Positions 8,976 to 27,494 of a stretch of 41,106 bases of DNA are shown here, piece after piece. Every line of letters begins with the position of its first letter. Position 1 is the stretch's first letter. The notes beneath the pieces were generated by a model. It worked only from the letters and a program-made list of their open reading frames with translations, was not told where the DNA came from and ran no database searches. Position numbers and translations under genes: made by a program. Location: assembly GCA_001871595.1 (NCBI GenBank), contig MNVH01000033.1, positions 1-41,106 of the forward strand, read 5' to 3'. The stretch comes from Candidatus Micrarchaeota archaeon CG1_02_55_22. Lineage in GTDB: Archaea > Micrarchaeota > Micrarchaeia > Norongarragalinales > UBA97.

Positions 8976-9806
8976 GTGTTCTCGCTGCGAATCGACATCG
9001 ATAGCCGTTACGGCCTGCTGCACGGGCTGCCCAACATACTCGAATCGTTGCGCCGCCACGACGTGAAAGCGTCGTTCTTCATCCCAACCGGCGGCGAAAG
9101 CAGCCTCGCCGACTTATTCCGCTACCGCGGTGGCTCCCGCGGCGCAATGGGCGGCGTGAGCCTGCCAAAACAGGAAATCCTTCGCATGGCTCTACTGCCC
9201 CGAAACTTTGCCGAAGAAAACGCGGGCTGGCTTAAAGACAACCTTATCGCTCAAGGACACGAGCTCGGCGTACACGCATTCAAGCACCGCGCGTGGACGC
9301 GGGCGCTAGACAAGATAGACGCCGCAGAACACGTCCGCCTCGCAACCCTTGCATTCACAAAAATATTTGGTTTCAAGCCTTCCTCGTTCGCCGCCCCCGC
9401 CTACCGCACCAGCCTCGCCGTGCTCGAAGCGCTCGACCGCGAGGGCTATGTTTGCGCCGGCGACTTGCCCGGCGAACACGCCTTTCACCCAATAATCGGT
9501 AAAAAACGTTTCAACCACGTTCAAGTGCCGGTCAACCTCAGGCAACCCTCAACCGACCCGTTAATCGAATCGTTCTCAAGTCAGGGAATGAGCGATGACG
9601 CGGTAATCAGCCAGGTGTGCCGGCGCATTGACGACGCGGGCGATTATGCGGTATTATACGGCCACGATTACTTTGAGGGAGCAGTGCGGCCGAAAATACT
9701 CGATGCCGTGCTCGGCCACGTCAAGAAGCAAGGGCTGCAAACCAAGACTATGAGTCAAATCGCTCGCGTAACCACGACGAACGAAGAAATCGAGATGCTA
9801 AAATGA
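8976..9806 (+). CDS. ArnD-like NodB-family deformylase/deacetylase
   Basis: A 276-residue NodB-fold hydrolase most like ArnD, which removes the formyl group from polyprenyl-phosphate-linked 4-formamido-arabinose. ArnD-like features are the opening FSLRIDIDSRYGLLHGLP, then VKASFFIPTG, the metal-binding GHELGVHAFKHRAW (about 90-103), FAAPAYRTS for the RxP motif, and a late LYGHDYFEG resembling the HAExEG region of ArnD. The window also encodes a sugar formyltransferase and FolD, so a deformylase role is attractive. It starts with GTG 8976, because an in-frame stop lies immediately upstream, and overlaps the thiolase start as ATGA. Being cotranscribed with acyl-CoA genes is odd. A general polysaccharide N-deacetylase is the alternative. 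Confidence 0.72.
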   Translation: MFSLRIDIDSRYGLLHGLPNILESLRRHDVKASFFIPTGGESSLADLFRYRGGSRGAMGGVSLPKQEILRMALLPRNFAEENAGWLKDNLIAQGHELGVHAFKHRAWTRALDKIDAAEHVRLATLAFTKIFGFKPSSFAAPAYRTSLAVLEALDREGYVCAGDLPGEHAFHPIIGKKRFNHVQVPVNLRQPSTDPLIESFSSQGMSDDAVISQVCRRIDDAGDYAVLYGHDYFEGAVRPKILDAVLGHVKKQGLQTKTMSQIARVTTTNEEIEMLK

Positions 9807-10939
9807 CTGCGTTCATCACCGGAACAGGAAAGACCAAGTTCGGCGTGCTATCCGAATCCTTATCCCAACTATTGCAAAAGGCGGTGGACGAGTGCCTGGA
9901 AAACGCTGGTCGAACCATCAACGACGTCGACGCGGTTTACTTGGCAAACTTTCTCGGCGGGCCGCAAGAATCACAGCTCCACTTAAACGCGCTCTTCTCC
10001 AGCATTTATGGGTTCGAGAAACCGGCCCTCCGCGTAGAAGCCGCGTGCGCGTCCGGCGCCGTTGCGCTCAACCAAGGCATTGCTGCACTCCAAAAGTTCG
10101 ACCGCGTGCTTGTGGTGGGCGTTGAAAAGCTTTCGGGCACGGACTCTAAGACCGCGTCGTCAAGCATTGCCATGGCCGGCGGGCGCATCCTCGACCAGCA
10201 AAACGGCATCATCTTTCCCGCAGCCTACGCGCTCCTCGCACAGCAACATTTCCTCCGTTATGGTTCCTCTATCGACGACTTGACGTTAATAAGCCTCAAA
10301 AACCACGCCAACGCAAACCTCAACCCTAAAGCGCACTTCTACTCGAAAAATGTTACCCGCGAGATGATTGAACAATCCCCGTTGGTTTCCACGCCTCTAC
10401 GCCTCTTTGATTGTTCACCAATAAGCGACGGCGCCGCAGCCGTACTGCTGGAAAAGGACGCGGGCCGCGCGAGAGCACGCGTCAGCGCCTCGCAATTGCG
10501 CACCGACACCATCTCCCTAATTGAACGTAACGATTTGACGTCTTTCAAGGCCGTCCGCCAAGCCGCCGCAGCAGCCTACGCCGAGGCTGGCATCACTCCC
10601 GCCGACGTTGATTTAGCTGAAGTCCACGATTGCTTTACCATAGCCGAACTCGTCGCTTACGAGGACTTGGGTTTCGCGTCCGCCGGCGAAGGCAAGCAAC
10701 TCGTTCGTAGCCACGCAACCGAACTCAACGGTGCTCTGCCAGTCAACACGGATGGTGGGCTCAAGGCCGACGGCCACCCCATAGGTGCAACCGGCGTCGC
10801 CCAAGCAGTCGAACTTACGCTGCAACTCTCGCGCGAGGCGGGCAAGCGACAAGTTGACGGCGCAAAAACCGGTTTGTGCCATAACGTTGGTGGAATCGGC
10901 GGTACCGCGGCAATACAAGTACTGGAGGCAGTAGAATGA
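9803..10939 (+). CDS. SCP-x-like thiolase (acetyl-CoA C-acetyltransferase)
   Basis: A 378-residue thiolase of the archaeal/SCP-x type that would join two acetyl-CoA into acetoacetyl-CoA, or cleave longer ketoacyl-CoA. The nucleophilic cysteine is Cys82 in EAACASG. Other signatures are EVHDCFTIAE, NTDGGLKADGHPIGATG with the catalytic His, and GLCHNVGG near the C-terminus. Archaeal thiolases of this type are known to form complexes with a DUF35 protein and HMG-CoA synthase. Here the next gene, overlapping by ATGA, carries a DUF35-like OB segment fused to a dehydrogenase. No HMG-CoA synthase is present in the window. Confidence 0.87.
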   Translation: MTAFITGTGKTKFGVLSESLSQLLQKAVDECLENAGRTINDVDAVYLANFLGGPQESQLHLNALFSSIYGFEKPALRVEAACASGAVALNQGIAALQKFDRVLVVGVEKLSGTDSKTASSSIAMAGGRILDQQNGIIFPAAYALLAQQHFLRYGSSIDDLTLISLKNHANANLNPKAHFYSKNVTREMIEQSPLVSTPLRLFDCSPISDGAAAVLLEKDAGRARARVSASQLRTDTISLIERNDLTSFKAVRQAAAAAYAEAGITPADVDLAEVHDCFTIAELVAYEDLGFASAGEGKQLVRSHATELNGALPVNTDGGLKADGHPIGATGVAQAVELTLQLSREAGKRQVDGAKTGLCHNVGGIGGTAAIQVLEAVE

Positions 10940-11949
10940 CGACTGCAAAGAAAACTGCTAGAACAATCGGCTTCACTACCGTGCACGCCCCATCAAAGGA
11001 GCACCCGTCGGTTCCGTACCACGTAGCGCTCTTGCGCGACTCTGACGGCAAGCACCACGTCCGTAAGACGTTCAAGTTGCCCGAAATAGGGCAAAGCTTT
11101 GACTTGGAAGGCAAGGGTACCGTTTCCCACGTGGGAATCGCTGGCACCGGGGTAATGGCTGCGGGCATTGCGTTGCTATGCCTTGAAAACGAGCTTAACG
11201 TCGTGGCAAAAGCCCGCAGCGCTGCCGCCGCGGAAAAGCTCGCTTCCGCAGTCAGTAAACAACTCGCTAAGAAAATGGATGACGCACAGGCAAGTTCTAC
11301 CGCTAAACGCTTCTCGACAACGCTCGCGCCGAGCGGCCTATCGGGCTGTCAAATCGTAGTCGAGGCAGTTGCCGAAGACCTCGCAATAAAGCAAAAACTT
11401 TTCAGTGAGCTTGACGCCGTGCTCCCACCTAATATCGTACTCGCCTCGAACACGTCCTCGCTATCAATAAAGGAAATCGCCGCAAACTGCCGCCACAAGG
11501 AAAGAGTTGCAGGAATGCATTTCTTCAACCCGGTCTCAAAAATGCAGCTCGTCGAAGTGGTTAAGACTAACGAGACTAATGACGAGGCGGAGAAAACCAT
11601 TTCTGAACTAGCACACCAGCTCGGCAAGACGCCTATAACAGTCAAGGACTCGCCAGGCTTCATCGTTAATCGTTTGTTAATGCCATTCCTGAACGATGCC
11701 GTACGGCTCGTCGAAGAAGGCGTTTCCGAGCCAGCGACAATAGACTCAGCTGTAAAGCTCGGGCTCAACCATCCAATGGGCCCACTCGCGTTAGTGGACT
11801 TGATTGGCATCGACGTATTCGTCGAAATAATGCGCGAGCTGCAGAGAAAAACCGGCGACAAATCTTTTGCTCCCCGCCCCTTAGCCCTAAAGCTCTTGAA
11901 TGAAGGCAAGCTTGGAAGAAAAACGGGCGAAGGATTCTACAAGTACTGA
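10936..11949 (+). CDS. 3-hydroxyacyl-CoA dehydrogenase with N-terminal DUF35-like OB extension
   Basis: A 337-residue protein. Residues 64-337 form a complete 3-hydroxybutyryl/3-hydroxyacyl-CoA dehydrogenase: GIAGTGVMAAGIA is the NAD-binding loop, IVVEAVAED and ASNTSSL are family motifs, GMHFFNPV holds the catalytic His, and NHPMGPLALVDLIG is the C-terminal domain signature. Residues 1-62 are extra for the family and resemble the C-terminal OB fold of DUF35 proteins (TTVHAP, then VPYHVALLRDSDG and an IGQSFDL-like end). The zinc ribbon of normal DUF35 is absent. The start overlaps the thiolase stop as ATGA. The protein would reduce the thiolase product; the OB part may dock it on the thiolase. 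The dehydrogenase assignment is firm; the OB assignment is by pattern only. Confidence 0.85.
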   Translation: MTTAKKTARTIGFTTVHAPSKEHPSVPYHVALLRDSDGKHHVRKTFKLPEIGQSFDLEGKGTVSHVGIAGTGVMAAGIALLCLENELNVVAKARSAAAAEKLASAVSKQLAKKMDDAQASSTAKRFSTTLAPSGLSGCQIVVEAVAEDLAIKQKLFSELDAVLPPNIVLASNTSSLSIKEIAANCRHKERVAGMHFFNPVSKMQLVEVVKTNETNDEAEKTISELAHQLGKTPITVKDSPGFIVNRLLMPFLNDAVRLVEEGVSEPATIDSAVKLGLNHPMGPLALVDLIGIDVFVEIMRELQRKTGDKSFAPRPLALKLLNEGKLGRKTGEGFYKY

Positions 11950-11956
11950 CAAACGC

Positions 11957-11962
11957 TTTTAA
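11957..11962 (+). promoter_or_regulatory. TATA box for the VIT-family gene
   Basis: TTTTAA lies 27-32 nt upstream of ATG 11989, fitting a leaderless transcript. It argues for ATG 11989 rather than the in-frame GTG at 11968, which would start inside the promoter. Confidence 0.5.
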
Positions 11963-11988
11963 GCCACTTGTGCGTAAGCTTTTTTGTG

Positions 11989-12726
11989 ATGAAGCGCGTG
12001 CCTTTAAGCAAGTACAACGACCACGCTACTCACGAGGAGTTCAACAAGGAGGAAATCCGTGGCGCCGTGATGCGGCAGATTATACTTGGCGGGCAGGACG
12101 GCCTCGTCAATGTTCTCGGAATAGTGCTCGGAGTGGCGACCGCCACGGGCGATTCCCGCCTCGTCCTATTATCCGGCGTCGCCGCGACGTTCGCCGAAAG
12201 CATTTCCATGGCCGCCGTCGCTTACACTTCAACTAAAGCGCAAAAGGAGTACTACCAGAAGAAGCTCGACGAGGAAAAGTACGAGATTGAAGTATTCCCG
12301 AAGTTCGAACGCAAGGAAATCCACGACATCTACTACAAGAAGGGCTTCCGCGGCAAGCTCCTAGCCGAGGTAGTCAAACACATTACTTCTAACAAGGCTC
12401 GTTGGGCTAGTGAAATGATGGTGGGAGAGCTCGGCATGACGGATAGCGAGTTCGATGCGCCAAGCCGCGAAGCGTTTGTTGTCGGAATCGCCTCTTTTGT
12501 CGGCTCCCTAATCCCCCTCGCCCCGTTCTTCTTCATGCCCTCCGGGCCCGCGACGATAGCATCACTAATATTTTCTGGAATAATCCTTCTTGCAGCCGGC
12601 GCAATCAAGGCACGGTTCACTACCGGCAAGCCAATCAAGGGCGCAGCCGAGCTGGCCGTAATAGGTATACTCTCCGCGCTGGCAGGTTACGTGATAGGAT
12701 TACTGTTCACTGCGACAGGGTTCTAG
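11989..12726 (+). CDS. VIT/CCC1-family Fe2+/Mn2+ transporter
   Basis: A 245-residue membrane protein of the VIT1/CCC1 family, which exports or stores Fe2+ and Mn2+. IRGAVMRQIILGGQDGLVNVLGIVLGV and the following ATFAESISMAAVAY match the first two family membrane segments; three further segments fill the C-terminal part. Between them lies a charged cytoplasmic region rich in Glu and Lys (about residues 73-150), where the family binds metal. The start is set by the TATA box. It is a single-gene unit after the thiolase operon. Confidence 0.85.
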   Translation: MKRVPLSKYNDHATHEEFNKEEIRGAVMRQIILGGQDGLVNVLGIVLGVATATGDSRLVLLSGVAATFAESISMAAVAYTSTKAQKEYYQKKLDEEKYEIEVFPKFERKEIHDIYYKKGFRGKLLAEVVKHITSNKARWASEMMVGELGMTDSEFDAPSREAFVVGIASFVGSLIPLAPFFFMPSGPATIASLIFSGIILLAAGAIKARFTTGKPIKGAAELAVIGILSALAGYVIGLLFTATGF

Positions 12727-12732
12727 ACCCGC

Positions 12733-13221
12733 TCATTTAAGTGCCACGTACTCTACCGAGCCGTCGCTTTTCCGTACAATCTTCTTAATCGGGCGCGCCG
12801 GCACGCCGACCGCGACCGTATTAGCAGGAATGTCCTTGTTTACCAGCGCGCACGCACCAATCACAGCGCCGTCACCAATTGTAACGCCCGGCATTATCGT
12901 TACGTTGGCGCCCAAGTACACGTTCTTTCCGATGACTACTTTCCTAAAGTCGCACTCGCTGCCGTGCCATTCGGGCGAAGAGTCGTGCGAGAAAATGCTG
13001 TTACGAAAACCGATTCCTGTGCCTTCGCCTATCTCAACCATCGTCTCCTTAATCTCAGGGGGTTGGTCAATAAACGCCAAGTACCCAATCCATACCCCGC
13101 GTCCAATCCTTACGCCGCGGGCCTTGTTTGCCCACACCCGGATAAAGCTGAACGGACCAAAAACCGCGAGGGGAACAAGGATGACGCCGAAAAGCCGGTG
13201 CACGAATTCGCGTATTTTCAT
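12733..13221 (-). CDS. Hexapeptide-repeat (LbH) acyltransferase
   Basis: A 162-residue left-handed beta-helix acyltransferase of the WbbJ/Maa type, likely to O- or N-acetylate a surface sugar. An N-terminal hydrophobic stretch (about 10-30) may anchor it to the membrane. Hexapeptide turns include VRIGRGVWIGY, VVIGKNVYLGANVTIMPGVTIGDGAVIGA; the motif FSHDSS carries the presumed catalytic His, and VGVPARPIKKI closes the domain as usual. Divergent from the GT-C gene at 13282, with a shared central AT box. It lies just beyond the formyltransferase end of the glycan run. Confidence 0.82.
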   Translation of the reverse strand: MKIREFVHRLFGVILVPLAVFGPFSFIRVWANKARGVRIGRGVWIGYLAFIDQPPEIKETMVEIGEGTGIGFRNSIFSHDSSPEWHGSECDFRKVVIGKNVYLGANVTIMPGVTIGDGAVIGACALVNKDIPANTVAVGVPARPIKKIVRKSDGSVEYVALK

Positions 13222-13246
13222 AACGCATTATTTATAGCCCAAACCG

Positions 13247-13254
13247 ATTTATTA
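13247..13254. promoter_or_regulatory. Central TATA box shared by the acyltransferase and GT-C genes
   Basis: ATTTATTA is centred at 13250.5; the two start codons (13221 minus, 13282 plus) have their midpoint at 13251.5. The box is therefore 26-35 nt from both starts, fitting leaderless transcription in both directions. A second AT stretch at 13228-13235 is too close to the minus start to serve it. Confidence 0.5.
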
Positions 13255-13281
13255 GGCTGCGCGCAGCATAAACTTTGTACA

Positions 13282-14622
13282 ATGAGTAAATCGGCCAAGC
13301 CCGGCGTTTACGCGCGGGCAAAAATGTTTGCAGCCCGGCGCACGCGCTCTGAGTGGATTGCTCTCGCCGCAATCGCGCTATTCATCGTGCTGTTCTTCAA
13401 GCCCGTAGTTGCAGGCGACGGGTTTGGCTATTACACCGTGCTTGAAGGCGCGGTGCGCGACCATACTCTCAATCTCTCCCAACAATATCACTACAACAAC
13501 GTCACCAACGGCAGCACGGTATTCTTTTACGCGCCGAGTGGAGTTTACGCGACGCAGTACGCGCCCGGGCTCGCCATTGCATCGGCACCGCTCTACGCAG
13601 TAAGCTTGGTGCTAGACGATTTCCGTGTATTCCATGTTTCCGACTCCTTCTTTATCGCCGAACGCGGCGACATACTGGTACACATGGCGAGCGTCGCGCT
13701 AACCTCGTTAATATTTGTCGCTGTCGCGCTCCTGCTCGGCCTCGAACTCCTCGGTAGGCTGGGCCTCAAGCGCCACGCACCCCTCGCACTCCTCGCAGCA
13801 TTCTTCGGCACGCCCTTAATCCGCTACGCTACCTACGATTTAACGTATACACACGCAATAGAGGCAGGAATACTTGCAATCGCAGTCTTCATCTTCTTCA
13901 CCGACGACAAGAAGAGCCTGCTTATCGGCGCGGTGATGGGTGCAATGACGCTAGTCCGTTACACTAGCATCGCGCTTCTTGTGCCTTTTCTCGCCTACTA
14001 CGCATGGCGCAAGCGCTGGCGTGACGCGGCCCTCGCCGTCGCCGGAGCCGTGCCCTTCGTGCTCGGCGTGATGTCTTACTGGTGGGCCCAGTTCGGCTCG
14101 CCGTTCATCACCAGCTACACCGCAAGCGGCAGCCTCACCGGTAATATCTCGTTAATACCGTGGGGCATTGGCAACGTCCTCTTCTCGATGCAACCCGACC
14201 CTCAAGCCTTGGCTTGGTGGACTCCAATATGCATAATTGCGTTGATTGGATTGGCGTTGTGGGAGAACCGCCGCAAATGGGTTCTACTCGGCCTTTTCGC
14301 AGTAATGCTGTGGGTTACCGGCTCGTCTTTCCACGGCACTACCGGCTTTTCTTTCAGCCACCGTTACTTTGCCGCACTCTTCATCGTCTTTCTCATCGGC
14401 ACCGCAGTATTGTTGGATAAGTTTGTCAAGGCGAAGTGGCTCGTCGCCGCGGCAACTGCGTGGACGGTGTTATTGTTCGTGCTGCACTTGACCGGTGAAT
14501 ACTCGTCGTTTGCCACGCTGCAAAGCGTCTATGCCTACTGGTTCAATGGCGGGCGGCTCGGAGAGTTACCGTCGAAGCTGTACGGAAAGCTCGGCGTGAT
14601 ACGCCTGCTTGCAAACAAATAG
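13282..14622 (+). CDS. GT-C family membrane glycosyltransferase
   Basis: A 446-residue protein with about ten membrane segments, of the PMT/ArnT-like GT-C superfamily that uses polyprenyl-phosphate sugars on the outer membrane face. The first outer loop GDGFGYYTVLEGAVRDH (about 44-60) is the place where GT-C enzymes carry their catalytic acidic residue, and a soluble-looking loop with YAPSGVYATQYAPG follows. The reading frame extends 318 nt further upstream, but that part lies antisense to the acyltransferase gene; ATG 13282 just after the AT box at 13247 is the natural start. The donor and acceptor sugars are unknown. Confidence 0.77.
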   Translation: MSKSAKPGVYARAKMFAARRTRSEWIALAAIALFIVLFFKPVVAGDGFGYYTVLEGAVRDHTLNLSQQYHYNNVTNGSTVFFYAPSGVYATQYAPGLAIASAPLYAVSLVLDDFRVFHVSDSFFIAERGDILVHMASVALTSLIFVAVALLLGLELLGRLGLKRHAPLALLAAFFGTPLIRYATYDLTYTHAIEAGILAIAVFIFFTDDKKSLLIGAVMGAMTLVRYTSIALLVPFLAYYAWRKRWRDAALAVAGAVPFVLGVMSYWWAQFGSPFITSYTASGSLTGNISLIPWGIGNVLFSMQPDPQALAWWTPICIIALIGLALWENRRKWVLLGLFAVMLWVTGSSFHGTTGFSFSHRYFAALFIVFLIGTAVLLDKFVKAKWLVAAATAWTVLLFVLHLTGEYSSFATLQSVYAYWFNGGRLGELPSKLYGKLGVIRLLANK

Positions 14623-14631
14623 GTTGACCGC

Positions 14632-15300
14632 CTATTTTTCTAGTTCCGCGCGTTTAATCAATAGTTTCTTGCCGTCCTTGCCGCGCAAGAACGCGTTCGG
14701 GTACGGGTCTTCAAGGCAGCGAACAAAGTCGTACAACTCTCCCGCGGTCATTGACGCAATTTTTTCCGCTGACAGTTCGCTCTCTTCCGGCGTGCGGCGC
14801 TTTACTAGCGTGGCTTGCGAGTGGTCCTGCAAAACAGGCTTCAAGTCAGGGTAATCCGTGACGAGCTTGCGGAACAGTTTTAGTCCAGTTGATGTGATGC
14901 GGTCGAGCACTTCGTCGAGGTGGCCGTCGAGCGGCATCTGTTCCTGTCCGTAAAGAGGCCCCTCGTCAAACTTTTCAGTCAGCTGGAAGAGCGACACGCC
15001 GCCGACGCGTTCGCCGGCAATAATCTGGTTCTGTATCGGGCTCCCGCCGCGATACTTCGGCAGTAACGACGGGTGCAGGCCGATAATGAGGTATTCCTCG
15101 TACAGTTCGGCCGGTACGAACCAGTTCCAGCCCGCCATGAAGAACAGGTCTGGCGCGAAAGCGTCGACTGCCGCGCGTGTGAGCCCGGCTTTCGTCGATA
15201 CGTGCAGGACCTCGTGGCCGTCTTCTTTGAGCGCTTCAACGATGCGGTTGGCCCAGTCGCGGTAGGATACGAAGACAATCCTGCGCTTTGGAGTATTCAA
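14632..15300 (-). CDS. Sugar N-formyltransferase (10-formyl-THF dependent)
   Basis: A 222-residue protein of the formyltransferase family (PurN, Fmt, ArnA N-domain, WbkC). It is too short for Met-tRNA formyltransferase (about 310), and its context points to an amino sugar. GLHPSLLPKYRGGSPIQ carries the catalytic His76, and FDEGPL supplies Asp112. The Asn that normally precedes the His by two positions is Gly74 here, a notable change. The C-terminal part (ELYDFVRCLEDPYPNAF) resembles the Fmt C-terminal region. The start is taken as TTG 15300, overlapping the upstream stop as TTGA; GTG 15339 would add 13 unlikely residues. Last gene of the long minus-strand run that also contains folD, the aminotransferase and the 4,6-dehydratase. 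Confidence 0.8.
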   Translation of the reverse strand: MNTPKRRIVFVSYRDWANRIVEALKEDGHEVLHVSTKAGLTRAAVDAFAPDLFFMAGWNWFVPAELYEEYLIIGLHPSLLPKYRGGSPIQNQIIAGERVGGVSLFQLTEKFDEGPLYGQEQMPLDGHLDEVLDRITSTGLKLFRKLVTDYPDLKPVLQDHSQATLVKRRTPEESELSAEKIASMTAGELYDFVRCLEDPYPNAFLRGKDGKKLLIKRAELEK

Positions 15301-15974
15301 GCAATCCGCCCTTCCCGCGGGTGCTTCTCGAACCACCACTGCGGGTGCGTCAAGAGCGTTATCTTGTCAAACTTGTCGATGTACTCTTCAGGGCCGTGCT
15401 CGTACCACCCGATGTGGCCGTCAATCCTCTCGGAAACGTACTTGGATTCTTTGACAAAAACGTCTTCGTACGCCTGGTAGTCAAAGCCCATTGCAGCTAA
15501 ATCCATTCCCTGCAACAACGGGAGCGTGTTCGCGGCGTAATTTATGTCGCGGTGGGGCGCTAGGCCGTGGACCTCGTGGCCAAGGCAGGCTTCAAGGAAC
15601 GCTTTCTCGCGCGCAAGAAGCGCGTCAGGTTTCTCTGCACCGTGCATTGCTGCAAACTCGCTCGCCTCGGTGTGTAAACCCAGCTCGTGGCCGGCGGACT
15701 CGAGGCGCTTGAGCAACGCGTAATTGTTGTACTCGAACGGGTTGTAGTGAGTGTGCACGCGCAAGAAGTACGTCGCTTTAACGCCCAGTTCGTCTTCCAC
15801 GCGCGCGAATCCCGCAGCGCGCTCAAAAAAGTTGTCCACGTCGTGGCGTAACAAGAACGTCTTTCCTTTGGGCTTCTTTGTGTGGTACTCGCTGAAGGTA
15901 TAGAACGTGTAGCCCGCTTCAAGCGCTTTAGTGATAACTTCTTTGTAGTGGTTGAAAGTAAAGTCGTAATCCAT
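15297..15974 (-). CDS. NodB-like polysaccharide deacetylase (WbmS-like)
   Basis: A 225-residue hydrolase of the polysaccharide deacetylase superfamily. LLRHDVDNFFERA gives the DVD metal/base motif, VKATYFLRVHTHYNPF the second strand, and GHELGLHTEASEF the His pair that binds zinc. LAPHRDINY stands where the RxPY motif is expected. Such proteins sit in O-antigen clusters and may remove an N-acetyl group before another acyl group is added. It abuts the dehydratase stop with no gap and overlaps the formyltransferase start, so removing acetyl and adding formyl to the same amine is one possible job. Confidence 0.75.
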   Translation of the reverse strand: MDYDFTFNHYKEVITKALEAGYTFYTFSEYHTKKPKGKTFLLRHDVDNFFERAAGFARVEDELGVKATYFLRVHTHYNPFEYNNYALLKRLESAGHELGLHTEASEFAAMHGAEKPDALLAREKAFLEACLGHEVHGLAPHRDINYAANTLPLLQGMDLAAMGFDYQAYEDVFVKESKYVSERIDGHIGWYEHGPEEYIDKFDKITLLTHPQWWFEKHPREGRIA

Positions 15975-17006
15975 TTACTTCGCCTTTGCATCGAACGGCT
16001 TGAATTCTGGCACGACCTCGTCGGGAGGCGTAATCTTCTTCAGCAACGCCTTTATCTGTTCGTCAGAGAGTTGTTCCGTGCCCTTGCTGTCGTACTCGAA
16101 CCAGTCCTTGCGCAGCTTCGCGCCTTTTGCCTGGTCGTACCAGTACGTGACGAAGTGGTCGTCGAACTCGTGCGTCCGCGTCATTTCTTCCTCGCTGACA
16201 AGAATCTCGTGAATCTTCTCCCCCGGACGCAGGCCAGTGACCTTGACGGGGTAGTCCGCGCGGTTGGCGTAGACTTCGCCCATCACGCGGGCGAGTTGGG
16301 TGATCTTGCACGCGGGCATCTTGCGTACGAACGTCTCCCCGCCCTTGCCCTCGCTCACCGCGAGGAAAACAAGGTTGATTGCCTCGTCTAGGGTGAGCCA
16401 GAATCGCGTCATGCGTTCGTCCGTAATTGTAAGCGGCTTTCCGTCCTTGATGAGCTGCTGGAAGCGCGGGATGACCGAACCACGGCTGCCAATGACGTTG
16501 CCGTAACGTACGCACATGAATCGGGTATCGCTGCGCCCATTGGCCGCAAAGAAAATCTTTTCCTGAATAGCTTTAGACATGCCCATTGCGTTGATGGGCT
16601 TAACCGCCTTGTCGGTACTGACCGTGACGACTTGACCGACGCCAGCATCGATTGCGGCCTCGACAACGTTCTTCGAGCCAATAATATTGGTTTTCACCGC
16701 CTCGAACGGGAAGTACTCGCACTGCGGTACGTGCTTGAGCGCCGCGGCGTGGAAAACCACGTCAACGCCGTACATGACTTCGTCCAAGCGAGCCGCGTCG
16801 CGTACGTCGCCGATTTGGAACTTCAGCAAGTCCTTGTGCTCGGCATACTTGTTGCACATGTGGTACTGCTTGTTCTCGTCGCGGCTGAATATGGTTATCT
16901 TTGCCGGGTTCATCAAGAGCAGCCGGTCTACAATCTGGTTGCCGAAGCTCCCCGTGCCGCCCGTGACAAGCACGTTTTTTCCCTTCAAAAGCGTCTGATC
17001 GTCCAT
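15975..17006 (-). CDS. CapE/WbjB-like UDP-GlcNAc 4,6-dehydratase
   Basis: An SDR enzyme of 343 residues that should convert UDP-GlcNAc to a UDP-2-acetamido-2,6-dideoxy-4-keto sugar, some members also epimerising C5. TGGTGSFG (15-22) binds NADP. The catalytic region reads STDKAVKPINAMGMSK (130-145): Asp132 and Lys133 are the dehydratase pair, and Met141 replaces the SDR Tyr, as in CapE-type rather than PseB-type enzymes. RYGNVIGSRGSVIPRF is a further signature. The start is ATG 17006, preceded by GGGGCGA as ribosome site; ATG 17024, overlapping the GT2 stop as TAATG, is possible and adds six residues. The downstream DegT aminotransferase could use its product. Confidence 0.87.
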   Translation of the reverse strand: MDDQTLLKGKNVLVTGGTGSFGNQIVDRLLLMNPAKITIFSRDENKQYHMCNKYAEHKDLLKFQIGDVRDAARLDEVMYGVDVVFHAAALKHVPQCEYFPFEAVKTNIIGSKNVVEAAIDAGVGQVVTVSTDKAVKPINAMGMSKAIQEKIFFAANGRSDTRFMCVRYGNVIGSRGSVIPRFQQLIKDGKPLTITDERMTRFWLTLDEAINLVFLAVSEGKGGETFVRKMPACKITQLARVMGEVYANRADYPVKVTGLRPGEKIHEILVSEEEMTRTHEFDDHFVTYWYDQAKGAKLRKDWFEYDSKGTEQLSDEQIKALLKKITPPDEVVPEFKPFDAKAK

Positions 17007-17023
17007 TAAATCGCCCCTTTGCA

Positions 17024-17989
17024 TTAAACGTATGACAAGAATATTCTTTTAAGCGGTGACTCGGAGAAGAAACCGCCAAAAAATGGCGTTCTCGACGGGG
17101 ATCCAAGGAATCCAGCGAGTTTCCTGCGTCGCGCGAGCCCGTCGCGAAGCACGTCAAACAACCCAGCTAGCACGCCAGCGCGTGCACGCGCCCTCTGCCA
17201 ATCGCGTTTTACCAAGTCTTTTGCGATGACTGCTATACGTAAGAGTACCGCGTAAGGAAAATATGCAGCCAGCCGCCCAGCCGGCAGGTGGCTTATCATT
17301 GTGACAAGCATGTTGCGCTCGATGCGCGTAGTGAGCTCTCCGGGCGTGAATATCTTGCGCGCCTGGTAGCCCATGTGGTAGAGCACGGCGTCGGAAAGCA
17401 TTTCAGTTAGGTATCCTGCGCGCAACAAGCGCAAGCCCAAGTCGACGTCTTCGGCGTAGATGAAGAATGACGGTTCGTAAAGGAACCCGCCGGCTTTCTC
17501 CAGTGCGCTGCGGCGCACGAGGCCCACGCCTGAGAATGGCATATTAACCGTGCCTTGCGGCCAGGTGTGCACCGCTCCGCCGTAAAACCCGCGCGAGAGC
17601 CAAGAGCCGCCAATGTCGATGCGGGCCCGGTCGTTGCCGTTCACGTTGACTGGAACGGCCATGCCGCAGTCCTCGTGCTCGTCCAAGTGGCGCGCCAAGC
17701 GTTTCATGCAGTCCGGTTCGAACTCCATGTCGGTTGCACCGATAAACACGTAGTCGCCCGTTGCAAGCGGCAGGCCGAGGTTGAATACCGGCGTGCCAAT
17801 GTTGCGCTCGTTGCGAACGTACTTTATTCCCTTGTCTGCTATGAATTCTTTCGTTCCGTCGCTAGACGCGTTATCGCACACGACTATCTCGACTGGAACG
17901 GTCTGCCGGGACAAGTTTGCCAAGACTTTTTTCAGGTTGGGCAGCTCATCCATCGTGATGAGCAGCACCGTTACGCTGCCTTTAGGCAT
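17024..17989 (-). CDS. GT2-family glycosyltransferase (rhamnosyltransferase-like)
   Basis: A 321-residue GT-A glycosyltransferase. The opening VTVLLITMDELPNLKKVLANL is typical of WbbL-like family 2 enzymes; VVCDNASSDGTKEF gives the nucleotide-binding Asp, and FIGATDMEFEPDC stands at the DxD position. FIYAEDVDLGLRLLRAGY is the conserved ED base motif, and YHMGYQARK follows. It should add one sugar to the growing lipid-linked glycan on the cytoplasmic side. It overlaps the aminotransferase by 8 nt. Confidence 0.85.
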   Translation of the reverse strand: MPKGSVTVLLITMDELPNLKKVLANLSRQTVPVEIVVCDNASSDGTKEFIADKGIKYVRNERNIGTPVFNLGLPLATGDYVFIGATDMEFEPDCMKRLARHLDEHEDCGMAVPVNVNGNDRARIDIGGSWLSRGFYGGAVHTWPQGTVNMPFSGVGLVRRSALEKAGGFLYEPSFFIYAEDVDLGLRLLRAGYLTEMLSDAVLYHMGYQARKIFTPGELTTRIERNMLVTMISHLPAGRLAAYFPYAVLLRIAVIAKDLVKRDWQRARARAGVLAGLFDVLRDGLARRRKLAGFLGSPSRTPFFGGFFSESPLKRIFLSYV

Positions 17990-19106
17990 TTTTCACAGCC
18001 TCCTTTGTCGCGTTCGCGATGCGCTGCAAGTCGTCTTGCGTGAGCCACCATCCACACGGGATGTTGAGTTTTCTTGCGTCGAAGCGTGCTACGGCCGAGT
18101 CGTCGCCCAGCGCCTCATTGCCTAGTCCTTTGTAGATGTCGTTGCGGGTGTGCGAAACCGAGTTGTCTATTCCTTGCGCGCTGAGGCTGTCCGATATAGC
18201 GCGTTTCTTGTCGGGTTCGACTAGTATAGTTAGTATCCAGTAGCTCGGATCGGCTCCGTCGGCAACGCGCGGGAACCCAACCGTGCCGTCAAGCTCGCTT
18301 TTCAGCGTCTTGGCGTTCTCCTTGTGCCTTGTCACAATCCCGTCCAAGTACTTCAGCTGCTCTAAACCTATTGCCGACGAGACGTCGTTCGTGTTCATCT
18401 TGTAGCCGGCTCCCGCGTACTCTTCGAAACCTTTTATCGAGTCGCGTTGCTCCTTGCGGTTCAAGCCAAACCACCGCAGTTTCGTGATGCGTTCGGCGTC
18501 CTCGGGTTTCTTGCACGCGACCGCGCCGCCCTCGATGGTTGTAATGTGTTTTATCGCCTGGAAAGAAAAGCACGCGTACTCGGAGTGGTTGCCTATCTTC
18601 TTGCTCTTGTAAAGCGCGCCAAGCGCGTGCGCCGAGTCCTCTACTACCGGAACGCCGTGCTTTTGTGCCACTCTGTGTATCGCGTCCAAGTCGGCAGGCA
18701 TTCCGCTCCAGTGGACCAGCATGATTGCGCGTGTGTCCTCGTCTATAGTCTCGTCTATCGACGCCGCCGAAATGTTCCCCGTGTCCTCTTCAACATCCGC
18801 CCACTTGATTGCCGCCCCGGCCTCGCGTATTGGCGTGTTTGTGGCAATGCAAGTCATGGGCGTTGAGACCACGTTCGGCTTTTCAGTAGGCTCGCCCGAG
18901 TCGAGCGCTTGGCGTACCGAGAGCGCGAGCGCGCCGGTGCACGAGCTAGTCAGTACCGTGTTAGGGTTTCCTACCCACTCGCCGAAACGCTTCTCGAACT
19001 CGTCCGACTTGGGCCCTTGGGCGATATAGCCAGAAAACAATACTTCTTCGAGTACGGACATCACGTCTTTAGGCATGTGCACTCTGTAAAGCGGTATCCG
19101 TTCCAT
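17982..19106 (-). CDS. DegT/DnrJ/EryC1 sugar aminotransferase
   Basis: A 374-residue PLP-dependent sugar aminotransferase that would aminate a 4-keto nucleotide sugar. VVEDSAHALGALY holds the cofactor Asp157, and SFQAIKHITTIEGG holds the PLP-binding Lys186. YKMNTNDVSSAIGLEQL is the family signature for the subunit interface. The start is ATG 19106; the GTG just before it is less likely. With the CapE-like dehydratase, the expected product is a UDP-4-amino-4,6-dideoxy-HexNAc, a natural substrate for the formyltransferase in the same run. Perosamine-synthase-like activity cannot be excluded. Confidence 0.88.
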   Translation of the reverse strand: MERIPLYRVHMPKDVMSVLEEVLFSGYIAQGPKSDEFEKRFGEWVGNPNTVLTSSCTGALALSVRQALDSGEPTEKPNVVSTPMTCIATNTPIREAGAAIKWADVEEDTGNISAASIDETIDEDTRAIMLVHWSGMPADLDAIHRVAQKHGVPVVEDSAHALGALYKSKKIGNHSEYACFSFQAIKHITTIEGGAVACKKPEDAERITKLRWFGLNRKEQRDSIKGFEEYAGAGYKMNTNDVSSAIGLEQLKYLDGIVTRHKENAKTLKSELDGTVGFPRVADGADPSYWILTILVEPDKKRAISDSLSAQGIDNSVSHTRNDIYKGLGNEALGDDSAVARFDARKLNIPCGWWLTQDDLQRIANATKEAVKNA

Positions 19107-19129
19107 CACACATCACTTCCATTTCTAAG

Positions 19130-19981
19130 CTAGGCAGTTGCGGCGCGTTCTTGCGCGGCTTCGACCAAGTTTTCCAGCAAGCTTGCAATTGTCATTGGGC
19201 CCACGCCGCCTGGAACCGGCGTCACGTACGAGGCCTTCTCGCACACGCGTGGGTCTACGTCTCCCACCACGCTGCGTTTCCCGCCGGACTCGACAAAATT
19301 CGTTCCAACATCAACGACAACCGCGCCGTCTTTAACCATTTCCGGCGTTACGATGCCTGCCTTGCCTACTGATGAGACGATGATGTCCGCGTCGCGGCAT
19401 ACCTCGGCCAGATTGGCGGTCTTGCTATGCGCAATCGTTACCGTGGCATCCTCCGCGAGAAGCAGGCCCGCGATGGGAATGCCGACGTCGGGGCTGCGGC
19501 CTATTACGACTGCCCTCTTTCCCGCCAGCTCGACTCCGTTGGCGTGGAGCAGTGCCATGATGCCTTTAGCGGTTGCGGCTACAAAGCCGGGCTTGCGCTC
19601 GAATATGCGCGCAAGATTTATTGGGTTAAGCCCGTCAACGTCTTTTTCCGGCGAGATTGCGGCCAGGCACTCGGCGGCGTCTGTTCCTTTTGGCAACGGT
19701 AACTGCAAGAGTATGCCGTCAACGCTGGAATCGTTGTTGAACGCGTCGATCGCCGCAAGCACTTGCCGCGTGCCGGCAGACGCCGGCAGGCGCTTCAAGA
19801 CGAACTCTCCGCCTATCTTCGTGCACGCGTCCTTCTTGAGCCGCACGTACAATTCGGACGCCGAGTCTTCGCCGACTAGTATTATCCCGAGCGTAGGCTG
19901 TACGCCCCGGGTTACCCTGGTTTTCAGTTCGTCAAGAACCTTGCTGCTAAGCGCTTTTCCGTCGAGAATAATAGCTGTCAT
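19130..19981 (-). CDS. folD: FolD methylene-THF dehydrogenase/cyclohydrolase
   Basis: A bifunctional 283-residue enzyme that oxidises 5,10-methylene-THF and hydrolyses it to 10-formyl-THF. The catalytic YVRLK (Tyr45, Lys49) matches YxxxK of the family. DGILLQLPLP, KDVDGLNPIN, GRSPDVGIPIAGLL and TPVPGGVGPMTIASLL are all present. The start is ATG 19981; the frame opens six codons earlier but without a better signal. Many archaea use tetrahydromethanopterin rather than folate, so FolD inside a glycan operon is telling: its likely job here is to supply formyl groups to the sugar formyltransferase downstream, although general C1 metabolism is not excluded. Confidence 0.94.
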   Translation of the reverse strand: MTAIILDGKALSSKVLDELKTRVTRGVQPTLGIILVGEDSASELYVRLKKDACTKIGGEFVLKRLPASAGTRQVLAAIDAFNNDSSVDGILLQLPLPKGTDAAECLAAISPEKDVDGLNPINLARIFERKPGFVAATAKGIMALLHANGVELAGKRAVVIGRSPDVGIPIAGLLLAEDATVTIAHSKTANLAEVCRDADIIVSSVGKAGIVTPEMVKDGAVVVDVGTNFVESGGKRSVVGDVDPRVCEKASYVTPVPGGVGPMTIASLLENLVEAAQERAATA

Positions 19982-20032
19982 GATGTCTAACCGCAACAAT
20001 TGTTTTAGGCGCCAAACTAATAAATAACGCGT

Positions 20033-21334
20033 CTAGGTGCTAGAACACCTTAAAGGTGCTGCAGCTCCGAGGCGGACCAGCAGAAATCCGTCCGGCAGCC
20101 CGCCGACAATGTTCCTGCAATCCACAACCACTCGGTTCGCCATCTTAGCGCCCAGTTCCGCCCAATCGATGCGTTTGTATTCGTCGTGGCCGGCTACTAC
20201 GACTATTACCTTCGCCCCTCGAGCGCACTCATCAAGCGTCCCGCCGCGGCAGCCCGCAATTCGTTCAATCTCGTCCGCACCGTAGTACGGGTCGTAACAC
20301 CACGCTTCAAACCCCGCGTGCTCTAGTCCGGCTATAACTGCGAGAGCGGGCGAGTTGCGGTGCTCGCGAACGTTCCCCCTGAATGCTAGGCCCAGCACGC
20401 AGGCCTTGCCACTAGAAGCGTGGCGTTTGACGAGTTCCACGACTTGTTGTGGTTGGGCGTCGTTGAGCTCCCGCGCGAGTGGGAAGAGCTTGTAATCGCC
20501 TTTAAGCACGGTCAAGAGCAGTTTAGGATAGATTGGAATACAGTGGCCGCCTACGCCGGGTCCTGGCTTGTGCAAGTCAACGTACCCTTCAGTGCCTTTG
20601 CGCTCTATTTCGCGCAAGTGCCAGTAGTCAACGCCCAACTCGCTTGCAGCGCGCGAGAGCTCGTTGGCGAGAGCCACGTTGACGTCGCGGTAAACTCCTT
20701 CAAATAGCTTGAGGCACTCGGCTTCCTCAAGCGAATCCGCTAGAACTACGCCTTTCGCGCACACTCTTCCGTAGAATGCTTTGGCGCGCTCGGCGCTTTC
20801 TTTGTTTAATCCGCTAACAATTTTAGGGAAACGAGTCAAGACGTCGGAAACAACGCTACCAGAATAAGCCCGCTCAGGGCAGAATGCGAGGAAAAAGTCC
20901 TTGCCCGCCTTGAGCCCGCTCTCTTCAAGCAATGGAACCAGTCGCCTTGTTCCGCCCGGCGGCATAGATGACTCAATTATCACTAAATCGCCTTGCTTGA
21001 GGCCTTTAGATATCGTTCGCGCAACAGCTTCAACGGTTGATACGTCCGCGTTATTATCAGTAAATAGGACGGGTGTGACAATCACGTGAATGGCTGCGTT
21101 GCGCACGGCGCTTTCAGCATCGATAGTAGCGGAAAAAGATTTCTCGGAAACGCTTTTCTGCAATAGTTCTTGCAAACCTTTTTCGTGCGGTAACAGGTTT
21201 TCCCCCGCATTTATCCTTTCTACCCGCTCGGCGTCAATATCGACTCCGCTAACAATACAGCCGCGGGCGGATAATGCCAGCGCGGTGGGGAAGCCTAGGT
21301 TGCCGAGCCCGAACACACTTACCTGCATAGCCAT
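20033..21334 (-). CDS. wecC: UDP-N-acetyl-D-mannosaminuronate dehydrogenase
   Basis: A 433-residue NAD-dependent nucleotide-sugar dehydrogenase that oxidises UDP-ManNAc at C6 to UDP-ManNAcA. FGLGNLGFPTALALSARG is the NAD-binding motif, IIESSMPPGGTRRLV and FCPER are family signatures, and GPGVGGHCIPIYPK carries the catalytic Cys265. A third domain with LGLAFRGNVREHRNSPA completes the normal three-domain layout. The wecB gene three genes upstream makes its substrate. UDP-GlcNAc 6-dehydrogenase (WbpA type) is the nearest alternative. Confidence 0.88.
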   Translation of the reverse strand: MAMQVSVFGLGNLGFPTALALSARGCIVSGVDIDAERVERINAGENLLPHEKGLQELLQKSVSEKSFSATIDAESAVRNAAIHVIVTPVLFTDNNADVSTVEAVARTISKGLKQGDLVIIESSMPPGGTRRLVPLLEESGLKAGKDFFLAFCPERAYSGSVVSDVLTRFPKIVSGLNKESAERAKAFYGRVCAKGVVLADSLEEAECLKLFEGVYRDVNVALANELSRAASELGVDYWHLREIERKGTEGYVDLHKPGPGVGGHCIPIYPKLLLTVLKGDYKLFPLARELNDAQPQQVVELVKRHASSGKACVLGLAFRGNVREHRNSPALAVIAGLEHAGFEAWCYDPYYGADEIERIAGCRGGTLDECARGAKVIVVVAGHDEYKRIDWAELGAKMANRVVVDCRNIVGGLPDGFLLVRLGAAAPLRCSST

Positions 21335-21359: not shown

Positions 21360-21836
21360 TTAAGATTGTTGCGGTTTGAGCACTCTGCTTAGGCGCTCTT
21401 TTTCCGGCACACGGCCGGTTACAACAGCTGGCGCGCCAGATGCGACCGACGCTTCGTCAACGTCTTTAGTGACAAGCGCGTTGTTGAGTACGCGGGCGTC
21501 GCGGCCAATCTTTACGCCCGGGTTTACCGTCACGCCCGACATTAGCCACGCGTAGTCGCCTATCTTTACTGGTGCTTTTTTGAGCATGAACCCCTTTGTT
21601 CCAGCGTGCGTGAATATGCACGCGCGAATGCCTATAGTGACGTTATCGTCAATAACTAGTCCGCCGGTGCCGTCAAGCACCGCGTCCTGGCCAATCCAGA
21701 CGTTGTCTCCGATGGTTATCTCGTCGCCCAAGAACGTAACACGGTCGTGTATGACGCAGTTGTCCCCAATTGAAAGATTCTTGCACTGGAACGAGACGCT
21801 TGCCGACACTCGCTGGTTCTTGCCTATGCTAGTCAT
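21360..21836 (-). CDS. Hexapeptide-repeat acetyltransferase
   Basis: A 158-residue left-handed beta-helix acyltransferase. Repeated turns such as LSIGDNCVIHDRV, ITIGDNVWIGQDAVLDG and VTVNPGVKIGRDARVLNNALV build the helix; IFTHAGTKGFM carries the likely catalytic His. It begins with ATG 21836, overlapping the GT4 stop as ATGA, which is stronger than the longer in-frame start at 21884. It lies between the GT4 gene and wecC, so it may acetylate an amino sugar or uronic acid (WlbB-like), but the substrate is unknown. Confidence 0.83.
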   Translation of the reverse strand: MTSIGKNQRVSASVSFQCKNLSIGDNCVIHDRVTFLGDEITIGDNVWIGQDAVLDGTGGLVIDDNVTIGIRACIFTHAGTKGFMLKKAPVKIGDYAWLMSGVTVNPGVKIGRDARVLNNALVTKDVDEASVASGAPAVVTGRVPEKERLSRVLKPQQS

Positions 21837-22951
21837 TGTATTCCACCTTGTTCTTCGGCGAACTCTCTCCAAGCCGCTGCCCACTTATCCTTAGAAAAGT
21901 CTTTCGCCCTAGAAATAGCATTCTTTCCAACTGCCTCACGCGACTTTTTGTCCGCGTAAAGCTCGTTAATGCGTTCGGCGAACGCGTCGGTCGTGGGCCG
22001 CGCAAAAAAGCCGTCGCGGCCGTCCGTGATTATATCGAGCAGCCCACCCACGTTGCTTGCCAGCACGGGTTTTCCGACAGCCATCGCTTCAAGGCACGAG
22101 AGGCTCGTCCCTTCCACACCAAGGCTCGGAATCACCACTAGGTCGCTTTCAGCGTAGACGCCGGGCATGTCTTTGTAGTGATCCAAGTGCCCTAGGAACT
22201 TTATGCGGCCGTCCTTCTCGGCGGCCTTCTTGACCGCTTCGGCGCCGTAGCTCGTGCCAGCAAACCATACCTCCAAGTCCTTCTGCGGGAGCTGCTTGAG
22301 CGCGTCGAGGAGCAGGTACGTGCCGCGGTTGCGCGTTAGGTTGCGGGGAAACAGCACGACGAACTTGCCGTCCTTGCGCTTTGCCGGGCGGGGCTTGAAT
22401 GTTTGTGAGTCCACGTAGTTGGGTATGACGGTTATTTTGTCGCGGTAGTTCGGGTGCTCGCTCTGCACGTAGCGCAAGAGAAACGAATCGACGCTTACTA
22501 TCGCCTTGCAATTGCGTATAGCGTGGTTGATTAAGAGCTTGAAGAACCGGTAACGCGCTGCCCAGTCCGCGTACTGCGCAAGACCGCCGCCTTGATACGG
22601 GACGTCCCAGCTTACCCCGTGAAACGTTGCCGTGTGGCCGCTGTCGAGCGGAAAAGCGTGGTTGGCGTCGTGCAAGTGCACCCAACCGTCACTGGCTTTC
22701 AACGCGGACTTCCACTCGAAGTTGAACCAGTACCTGCCGCGCGACTTGACCTGCGTTACGGGAATGCCGTCGTACTCGAACTCAGCTTCGCTAGCGCCGC
22801 CCTGAATTACGCTCGGCTCCCAGCCCGCGTCGCGCAAGACAACGCACAAGTCGTGCAGATAAACTTCACCGCCGCCGATGAGCTGGCGTCCCTTGACGTC
22901 GAAGCCGTCGACGCTGCCCGCGAAACTATAATTGACGAAAGTCGCCTTCAT
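21833..22951 (-). CDS. GT4-family (GT-B fold) glycosyltransferase
   Basis: A 372-residue retaining glycosyltransferase of family 4. An N-terminal GGGEVYLHDLCVVLRDAGW acceptor-side motif, VVLFPRNLTRNRGTYLLLDAL at the domain junction, and the C-terminal GVEGTSLSCLEAMAVGKPVLASNVGG with the ExxxxxxxE donor site are all present. It should add a sugar to the lipid-linked glycan in the cytoplasm. Both ends overlap its neighbours by ATGA (wecB upstream, acetyltransferase downstream), giving tight translational coupling. Confidence 0.88.
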   Translation of the reverse strand: MKATFVNYSFAGSVDGFDVKGRQLIGGGEVYLHDLCVVLRDAGWEPSVIQGGASEAEFEYDGIPVTQVKSRGRYWFNFEWKSALKASDGWVHLHDANHAFPLDSGHTATFHGVSWDVPYQGGGLAQYADWAARYRFFKLLINHAIRNCKAIVSVDSFLLRYVQSEHPNYRDKITVIPNYVDSQTFKPRPAKRKDGKFVVLFPRNLTRNRGTYLLLDALKQLPQKDLEVWFAGTSYGAEAVKKAAEKDGRIKFLGHLDHYKDMPGVYAESDLVVIPSLGVEGTSLSCLEAMAVGKPVLASNVGGLLDIITDGRDGFFARPTTDAFAERINELYADKKSREAVGKNAISRAKDFSKDKWAAAWREFAEEQGGIQ

Positions 22952-25822: not shown

Positions 25823-25993
25823 TCAACCGCCAAAAACTCTCTGCAACAGCGCTGCCGCGTAGCCTGCGTACTTTGCGTCGGCTGCAAAGTTGTAGTAGAT
25901 GAACAGTGCAATCACTAGCACTGCGAAAGCGAGCCCGGCCCCTTGCCGGAGAGTTATTTTTTGTAGACGAAGTTTGTCTTGAACACGCGCCAT
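25823..25993 (-). CDS. 56-residue single-pass membrane protein
   Basis: A short ORF (ATG 25993, TGA 25823-25825) in a different frame from the radical SAM gene, whose last 40 nt it overlaps. It has a basic N-terminus (MARVQDKLRLQK), one hydrophobic helix (LAFAVLVIALFIYY, about 21-34), and a polar tail rich in Ala and Tyr. Its stop is one base before the start of the GT-C gene (TGAAATG). That packing, a proper start and a clean membrane segment make it a likely real gene, perhaps a partner of the GT-C enzyme. No family is recognised. Confidence 0.6.
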   Translation of the reverse strand: MARVQDKLRLQKITLRQGAGLAFAVLVIALFIYYNFAADAKYAGYAAALLQRVFGG

Positions 25994-27462: not shown

Positions 27463-27494
27463 TAAAGACACCCAGTAAAGTTATGGCAAAAGCG

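Follow-up and report, generated by a model that had tools for sequence, protein, structure and literature searches.

A minus-strand operon of glycan genes in Candidatus Micrarchaeota archaeon CG1_02_55_22 very probably formylates an amino sugar, for which it also provides the formyl donor; these activities are those predicted from protein families and gene order. The operon lies in a 41,106-nt stretch of contig MNVH01000033.1 (the whole of which was analysed and is called the window below), belonging to an assembly (G000 in our comparisons) that is 82% complete, so that absences from it are provisional. A preliminary description of this DNA had named a short formyltransferase (here FT2), a dehydratase, a DegT aminotransferase, FolD and an ArnD-like protein encoded divergently from aglB. 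These genes are real, all lie at or very near the coordinates given, and their family matches are far beyond chance. The listing needs amending at three points: a 225-residue gene between the dehydratase and FT2 genes, which we call NodB2, had been missed; the dehydratase is of PseB type; and FT2 lacks one residue of the catalytic triad. NodB2, and not the ArnD-like protein, is the deacylase genetically tied to FT2. The genes of the operon that bear on this are as follows.

14632-15339, minus strand: FT2, short sugar N-formyltransferase-like protein (Pfam Formyl_trans_N, 2e-18)
15297-15974, minus strand: NodB2, divergent NodB/CE4-fold putative sugar de-N-acylase (Polysacc_deac_1, 4e-4, sub-gathering, and predicted fold)
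15975-17024, minus strand: PseB-like UDP-GlcNAc 4,6-dehydratase, inverting type (NCBIfam PseB, 2e-106; Polysacc_synt_2, 7e-108)
17024-17989, minus strand: glycosyltransferase of family GT2 (Pfam Glycos_transf_2, 2.8e-17)
17982-19109, minus strand: DegT/PseC-like pyridoxal-phosphate-dependent sugar aminotransferase (Pfam DegT, 1e-77; NCBIfam PseC best)
19130-19999, minus strand: FolD, methylene-tetrahydrofolate (THF) dehydrogenase/cyclohydrolase (Pfam THF_DHG_CYH_C, 1e-58; other domain, 2e-34)
20033-21334, minus strand: nucleotide-sugar (UDP-ManNAc-type) dehydrogenase (TIGR03026, 348 bits, cut-off 190; archaeal UDP-ManNAc dehydrogenase model, 283 bits)
21360-21884, minus strand: left-handed beta-helix (hexapeptide) acyltransferase, WcaF-like (Pfam Hexapep, 5.8e-16; NCBIfam)
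21833-22951, minus strand: glycosyltransferase of family GT4 (NCBIfam GT4 models)
22948-23973, minus strand: WecB-like UDP-GlcNAc 2-epimerase (Pfam, 1e-52; NCBIfam wecB, 204.7 bits against a cut-off of 210)

The minus-strand glycan genes run from 27471 to 14632 with spacings between neighbours of -52 (overlap) to +42 bp, and because they share a strand and either overlap or are separated by at most 42 bp, they are likely to form one transcript. That the cluster serves a 4-amino-4,6-dideoxy sugar and includes an N-formyltransferase, as the preliminary description proposed, is supported by both families and operon order. By its matches, the dehydratase is of the inverting, UDP-GlcNAc-using PseB type rather than the dTDP-glucose type: PseB is its best NCBIfam model (TIGR03589, 355.6 bits, below the equivalog cut-off of 407.75; FnlA follows at 306.8), and its relatives among PDB structures are 4j2o, FlaA1 (2gn4) and CapE, which are UDP-GlcNAc 4,6-dehydratases/5-epimerases. 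The best NCBIfam model for the aminotransferase is PseC (TIGR03588), at 210 bits below its cut-off of 423.5, for which reason we call the protein PseC-like; its PDB matches are 4zwv, ArnB and PseC. Given these PseB- and PseC-like matches, the expected intermediate is a 4-amino-4,6-dideoxy sugar that derives from UDP-GlcNAc and bears an acetamido group at C2. Further upstream, the WecB-like and UDP-ManNAc-dehydrogenase-like genes suggest that a uronic acid of ManNAcA type is a second sugar.

FT2 is 222 residues long when read from a TTG codon at 15300, and 235 residues long as the longest open reading frame (ORF; 14632-15339). Its Formyl_trans_N domain (PF00551) scores 67.2 bits, above the curated cut-off of 26.1 (2.1e-18), and it is the sole PF00551 protein in the assembly. 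In profile searches of the PDB the best match is 1zgh (7e-43), followed by Fmt (4e-19) and ArnA (2e-15), and 1zgh is likewise the top Foldseek match of the AlphaFold model (TM score 0.81). In the alignment the Asn-His-Asp triad is incomplete, with His89 and Asp125 kept and a Gly at the Asn position, and the SLLPxYRG loop is retained. The gene is set in a nucleotide-sugar operon with a dehydratase and an aminotransferase here and also in phage contigs. Our working model is that FT2 would transfer formyl despite its incomplete triad. Its closest match in both sequence and fold, 1zgh, is a Clostridium thermocellum structural-genomics protein annotated as a methionyl-tRNA formyltransferase (Fmt); it shares the lack of the Asn and is probably a misnamed sugar enzyme, a role suggested by the gene contexts of the relatives of FT2.

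The NodB2 gene overlaps that of FT2. Its Pfam match is weak and under the gathering score, and a structure prediction built from five relatives (pLDDT 81) returns CE4/NodB deacetylases first and almost exclusively in Foldseek (TM about 0.4-0.5, probability about 1), so that the protein is predicted to adopt the NodB fold. Compared with the D-H-H metal triad and H-x3-H motif of such enzymes, NodB2 and its relatives show D45, D47, H101, H141 and H210 as conserved or nearly so, with H44 invariant and the second His of H-x3-H missing. A contig scan with NodB2 found only three weak bacterial relatives, with no formyltransferase seen adjoining any of them.

The association of the two genes is not confined to the window. 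The order PseB-DegT-FT1-NodB2-FT2 occurs in four independent sets of IMG/VR phage contigs (L002, L085/L091, L088/L089 and L090), with NodB2 adjoining FT2 as it does here, two extra genes inserted in the L085/L091 module, and FT1 a canonical formyltransferase with the Asn, kept alongside FT2. The contigs that bear the module are 91-293 kb long; L088 additionally has genes resembling those of a sialic acid synthase and a cytidylyltransferase, and on L091 there is a PseH-like gene. In other lineages a formyltransferase is adjoined by PIG-L, which is non-homologous to NodB2 and seems to replace it functionally: this is so in phage L087, in Ruegeria B32 (a formyltransferase/PIG-L pair), in two genomes of the same class, and on a plasmid of Synechococcus NIES-970. 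Of the two genomes, both archaeal and metagenome-assembled, G093 has the order DegT-PseI-FT2-PIG-L-formyltransferase with PseB nearby; G058 combines PseB and DegT with a NeuB/PseI-like synthase, PIG-L, a formyltransferase and a PseH-like protein. The NIES-970 plasmid encodes PseB, PseC, a cytidylyltransferase, a GT28 protein, a PseH-like protein, FT2, LmbE and PseI (509 bits, cut-off 340). Most formyltransferase matches in related genomes are of PurN type and were left out of our counts of sugar enzymes.

Because two unrelated deacetylase families adjoin these formyltransferases, gene context argues that de-N-acetylation and N-formylation act together, and the clusters, often of pseudaminic-acid type, suggest that the first precedes the second on the sugar. 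In NIES-970 and G058 a PseH-like N4-acetyltransferase would already serve N4, so the simplest target for the formyltransferase and deacetylase there is the other nitrogen. Among open-licence papers on formyltransferases or deacetylases in pseudaminic acid pathways, we found no description of a pair of the NodB2/FT2 type.

Formyl supply from within the operon, as the preliminary description suggested, is plausible. Both THF_DHG_CYH domains of FolD score above their cut-offs (118.7 against 32.8 bits, and 197.6 against 27 bits), folD is single copy in the assembly, and serine hydroxymethyltransferase (SHMT) is encoded elsewhere in it; searches of this 82% complete assembly for formyl-THF synthetase (FTHFS), PurL/PurM and PurE found none. 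Since SHMT is kept while neither FTHFS nor any other PF00551 protein was found, 10-formyl-THF would, within the assembly, be made solely by SHMT and FolD and used solely by FT2 among PF00551 enzymes, and FolD is plausibly the dedicated formyl supplier of the glycan operon. Two genomes of the same family, G001 and G002, possess PurL/PurM and PurE (in G001 on two different contigs), and in both folD stands behind purN in a purine operon; across the class its neighbours are glyA, folC or purN. The preliminary description had looked to the position of folD in relatives for a link to a formyltransferase: in all those looked at it lies elsewhere, and a link of another kind does exist, as its usual neighbour, purN, encodes a formyltransferase of the same superfamily. 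A tree places the FolD encoded here, weakly (84/86), beside the FolD of G003, a third member of the family, and for this reason it is probably the inherited copy; the tree is too poorly resolved to separate relocation from transfer. In G003 itself, PurN and FolD are fused in one 492-residue ORF (L065, 5165-6643). The window also encodes a PurF-like amidophosphoribosyltransferase (34904-36820, plus strand, 638 aa; TIGR01134, 224 bits, cut-off 350), though PurL/PurM and PurE were not found in the assembly.

In the pathway we propose, whose activities, substrates and order of steps we infer, the PseB-like dehydratase and DegT aminotransferase would convert UDP-GlcNAc to a UDP-2-acetamido-4-amino-2,4,6-trideoxyhexose, from which NodB2 would strip the N-acetyl group. 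FT2 would then move formyl from 10-formyl-THF to a free amine, either the one freed by NodB2, which we favour, or that at C4. FolD and SHMT would supply the 10-formyl-THF, with FT2 as FolD's only recognised PF00551 client in the assembly, and the GT2 and GT4 enzymes together with AglB would transfer the formylated sugar. Taken whole, a model in which the operon, with its own formyl supply, both makes an N-formylated amino sugar destined for the surface or for an N-glycan and transfers it is in our judgement modestly more probable than otherwise; if FT2 is active, the balance tips slightly towards the C2 nitrogen, after NodB2, over that at C4.

The ArnD-like gene would stand outside the formylation step. 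The plus-strand operon that it heads is a separate one, with a different exchange of N-acyl groups as its most likely role; its genes and neighbours are these.

5887-8856, minus strand: AglB/STT3-type oligosaccharyltransferase (TIGR04154, 1e-24), with orthologues beside ArnD-like genes in G010, G016 and G019
8976-9806, plus strand: ArnD-like NodB-fold deacylase, 276 aa (NCBIfam ArnD, 3.6e-22)
9803-10939, plus strand: archaeal-type acetoacetyl-CoA thiolase (Pfam Thiolase_C_1, 1.8e-49; NCBIfam)
10936-11949, plus strand: 3-hydroxybutyryl-CoA dehydrogenase-like protein (3HCDH) with a short N-terminal extension (Pfam, 6.5e-51; NCBIfam PRK05808, 5.6e-86)
12733-13221, minus strand: second left-handed beta-helix acyltransferase (Pfam Hexapep, 1e-13; NCBIfam)

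The ArnD-like gene is separated from aglB by 119 bp, overlaps the thiolase gene by 4 bp, and the thiolase gene in turn overlaps that of 3HCDH by 4 bp. Its product groups with ArnD rather than with peptidoglycan or chitin deacetylases, as the preliminary description had expected: among NCBIfam models ArnD comes first at 3.6e-22 and the runner-up reaches 7e-7, profile comparison with the PDB matches ArnD (8t0j) over the full length at 2.8e-22 and the next structure partially at 2e-10, and an alignment with ArnD matches both motifs, RIDxD and HAxxH, as well as the stretch that follows the first of them. Leaving aside weak matches, 4 of the 295 genomes in the class have an orthologue (G000, G010, G016 and G019). 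In the last three its gene is close to aglB; thiolase and 3HCDH genes are seen alongside in G016 and G019, and a 3HCDH gene in G010. The protein at 10936-11949 is the only strong 3HCDH in the assembly; strong 3HCDH genes are found in the same four genomes and in G191, where the gene adjoins a relative of NodB2, and not in G001 or G002. An apparent 3HCDH-NodB2 fusion in G191 was rejected as a scaffold-gap artefact. In G019 the gene adjoining 3HCDH encodes a hexapeptide acyltransferase similar to that at 12733-13221. The ArnD-like/thiolase/3HCDH operon by aglB (also L149, L150 and L147) spans several families of the order and occurs in genomes without another strong 3HCDH. Directly behind the 3HCDH gene in the window is a small membrane protein (11968-12726, plus strand) that by eye resembles VIT/CCC1-type transporters.

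The co-occurrence of ArnD-like genes with a sugar formyltransferase that the preliminary description anticipated does not hold: G010 (90% complete, 8 contigs) has the ArnD-like gene and neither NodB2 nor a sugar-type formyltransferase. G016 and G019 are too fragmented to serve as negatives. In G019, contig C29 (L186) was considered as a continuation of the operon behind PseB and rejected, as it carries an extracytoplasmic-function (ECF) sigma factor and a UvrA fragment; with its PseB fragment it is probable bacterial contamination, and because it looks like a contaminant the missing NodB2 and FT2 in G019 are not conclusive. The operon holds thiolase and 3HCDH genes and is kept in G010 without a sugar formyltransferase; the ArnD-like protein is therefore tied to acyl-CoA enzymes and not to formylation.

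Several alternatives bear on parts of this account. An Ara4N-like cycle, with formylation on the nucleotide sugar and deformylation by the ArnD-like protein on the lipid carrier, was the reading of the preliminary description, and the full-length likeness to ArnD and the presence of a formyltransferase in the same locus speak for it; the membership of the ArnD-like gene in another operon, its retention in G010 and a score of 79 bits, far under the ArnD equivalog cut-off of 382 (NF011923), make it very improbable. It is only a little less improbable that FT2 is no longer a formyltransferase and has become hydrolase-like towards 10-formyl-THF, structural, or a carrier of some other group. FT2 and 1zgh both lack the triad Asn, as does the hydrolase domain of 10-formyl-THF dehydrogenase, a likeness that would suit this alternative; against it, FT2 retains the His, the Asp and the loop, nearly all lineages seen place it in a sugar-biosynthesis context, and phages keep it beside a canonical formyltransferase. 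Somewhat likelier, though still improbable, is that FolD is an ordinary folate gene that the loss or rearrangement of a purine operon left among the glycan genes, with no dedicated supply. That folD is a purine/folate gene by purN or glyA in relatives, and that the copy here is probably inherited, agree with such an origin; the assembly, however, keeps FolD and SHMT with no purN, PurL/PurM or PurE detected, no more than a few genes separate folD from that of the sole formyltransferase, and a relocated inherited gene could still have a dedicated role.

The most serious competitor, which we nevertheless consider unlikely, is that PseB, DegT and FT2 make a plain UDP-4-formamido-4,6-dideoxy sugar while NodB2 has a different sugar as its substrate or works at a later stage, on the glycan. 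Dehydratase, aminotransferase and formyltransferase are the classical bacterial set, there is no PseH-like gene among the annotated genes of the window, and deacetylase-free clusters exist, namely PseB-DegT-PseI-FT2 in G083 (same class) and PseB-DegT with two FT2-like genes in phage L083/L084, where neither NodB2 nor another deacetylase is present; for this reason the FT2-deacetylase pairing is not obligatory. On the other side stand the NodB2-FT2 overlap here and their adjacency in four phage contigs, the PIG-L genes adjoining formyltransferases in other lineages, and the PseH-bearing clusters, which leave FT2 no task at N4. Besides the deacetylase-free clusters, further observations weigh against our model of deacetylation followed by self-supplied formylation: the catalytic Asn is missing from FT2, from all its close relatives aligned (phage ones included) and from 1zgh; NodB2 lacks the second His that an H-x3-H motif normally has; relatives about 30% identical to NodB2 sit in haloarchaeal and Sphingomonas glycan clusters that have no formyltransferase; and folD within such an operon was seen in this genome only.

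Alongside the formylation model we hypothesise that the ArnD-like/thiolase/3HCDH operon is a second acyl-exchange cassette. To judge from their families, the thiolase and 3-hydroxybutyryl-CoA dehydrogenase would yield 3-hydroxybutyryl-CoA, and 3-hydroxybutyryl is a known substituent of bacterial amino sugars (PMC6222762). Two cassettes might then serve one glycan in parallel, NodB2, FT2 and FolD exchanging acetyl for formyl, and the ArnD-like protein, thiolase, 3HCDH and hexapeptide acyltransferase exchanging acetyl for 3-hydroxybutyryl, for which the lipid carrier may be the site; this combined reading is tentative, and we rate it clearly below the formylation model. No description of a 3-hydroxybutyryl/thiolase glycan system was found among open-licence papers.

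A B12-binding radical SAM protein is also encoded in the glycan region (25954-27471, minus strand), with a 44% identical counterpart in the glycan region of G010. An Rfam scan of the window gave 0 matches.

The preliminary description knew of no such system in archaea, and this holds in part. One report describes 5-N-formyl-legionaminic acid on the N-glycan of Halorubrum sp. PV6, whose leg cluster contains a candidate gene for the formyltransferase (PMC6137143). The Halorubrum locus resembles ours in being an archaeal N-glycan locus with an NDP-sugar 4,6-dehydratase, an aminotransferase and a candidate formyltransferase, and its formyl group sits on N5, the nitrogen derived from C2 of GlcNAc. 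It differs in that LegI, LegG and LegF are not recognised in the window and the sugar is of another type; its formyltransferase is assigned by annotation only, and the accessible portion of the report mentions neither FolD nor a deacetylase (PMC6137143). FolD in the operon and the NodB2/FT2 pair also set the present system apart. Pseudaminic clusters such as those of the NIES-970 plasmid and G093 share PseB and PseC-like enzymes and an FT2-like protein adjoining a de-N-acetylase; unlike the window they have PseI and a PIG-L deacetylase, NIES-970 in addition encodes a cytidylyltransferase and, where PseG would stand, a GT28 protein, and no FolD was found in the stretches of either that were examined. 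Bacterial 4-formamido-4,6-dideoxy pathways (VioF, WbkC, Rv3404c, FdtF) have the dehydratase, the DegT aminotransferase and the 10-formyl-THF formyltransferase fold in common with our operon, whereas FT2 is shorter, is nearest to 1zgh, has no catalytic Asn, and probably acts on a UDP-GlcNAc-derived substrate. With the ArnA/ArnB/ArnC/ArnD pathway of lipid A the window shares a formyltransferase fold, a DegT aminotransferase and, within the same genomic region, an ArnD-like deacylase; unlike that pathway, it has no recognised ArnA dehydrogenase partner or ArnT, and its ArnD-like gene belongs to the separate thiolase/3HCDH operon.

If the formylation model is true, FolD has been captured by an archaeal glycan operon in a genome where purine synthesis is not detected, and few folate enzymes would be like it in having just one apparent client, a non-canonical one. 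The pairing of a deacetylase (NodB2 or PIG-L) with a formyltransferase would be a testable route to N5-formyl nonulosonic acids, for example those of the Halorubrum S-layer and its virus, no deacylation step being mentioned for the N5-formyl sugar in the accessible portion of that report (PMC6137143). The ArnD-like/thiolase/3HCDH operon by aglB predicts a further unusual acyl group, of 3-hydroxybutyryl type, on an archaeal glycan. Were the two-cassette reading also true, de-N-acetylase and formyltransferase would constitute a general and so far unnamed module of bacteria, archaea and phages, in which NodB2 and PIG-L are interchangeable.

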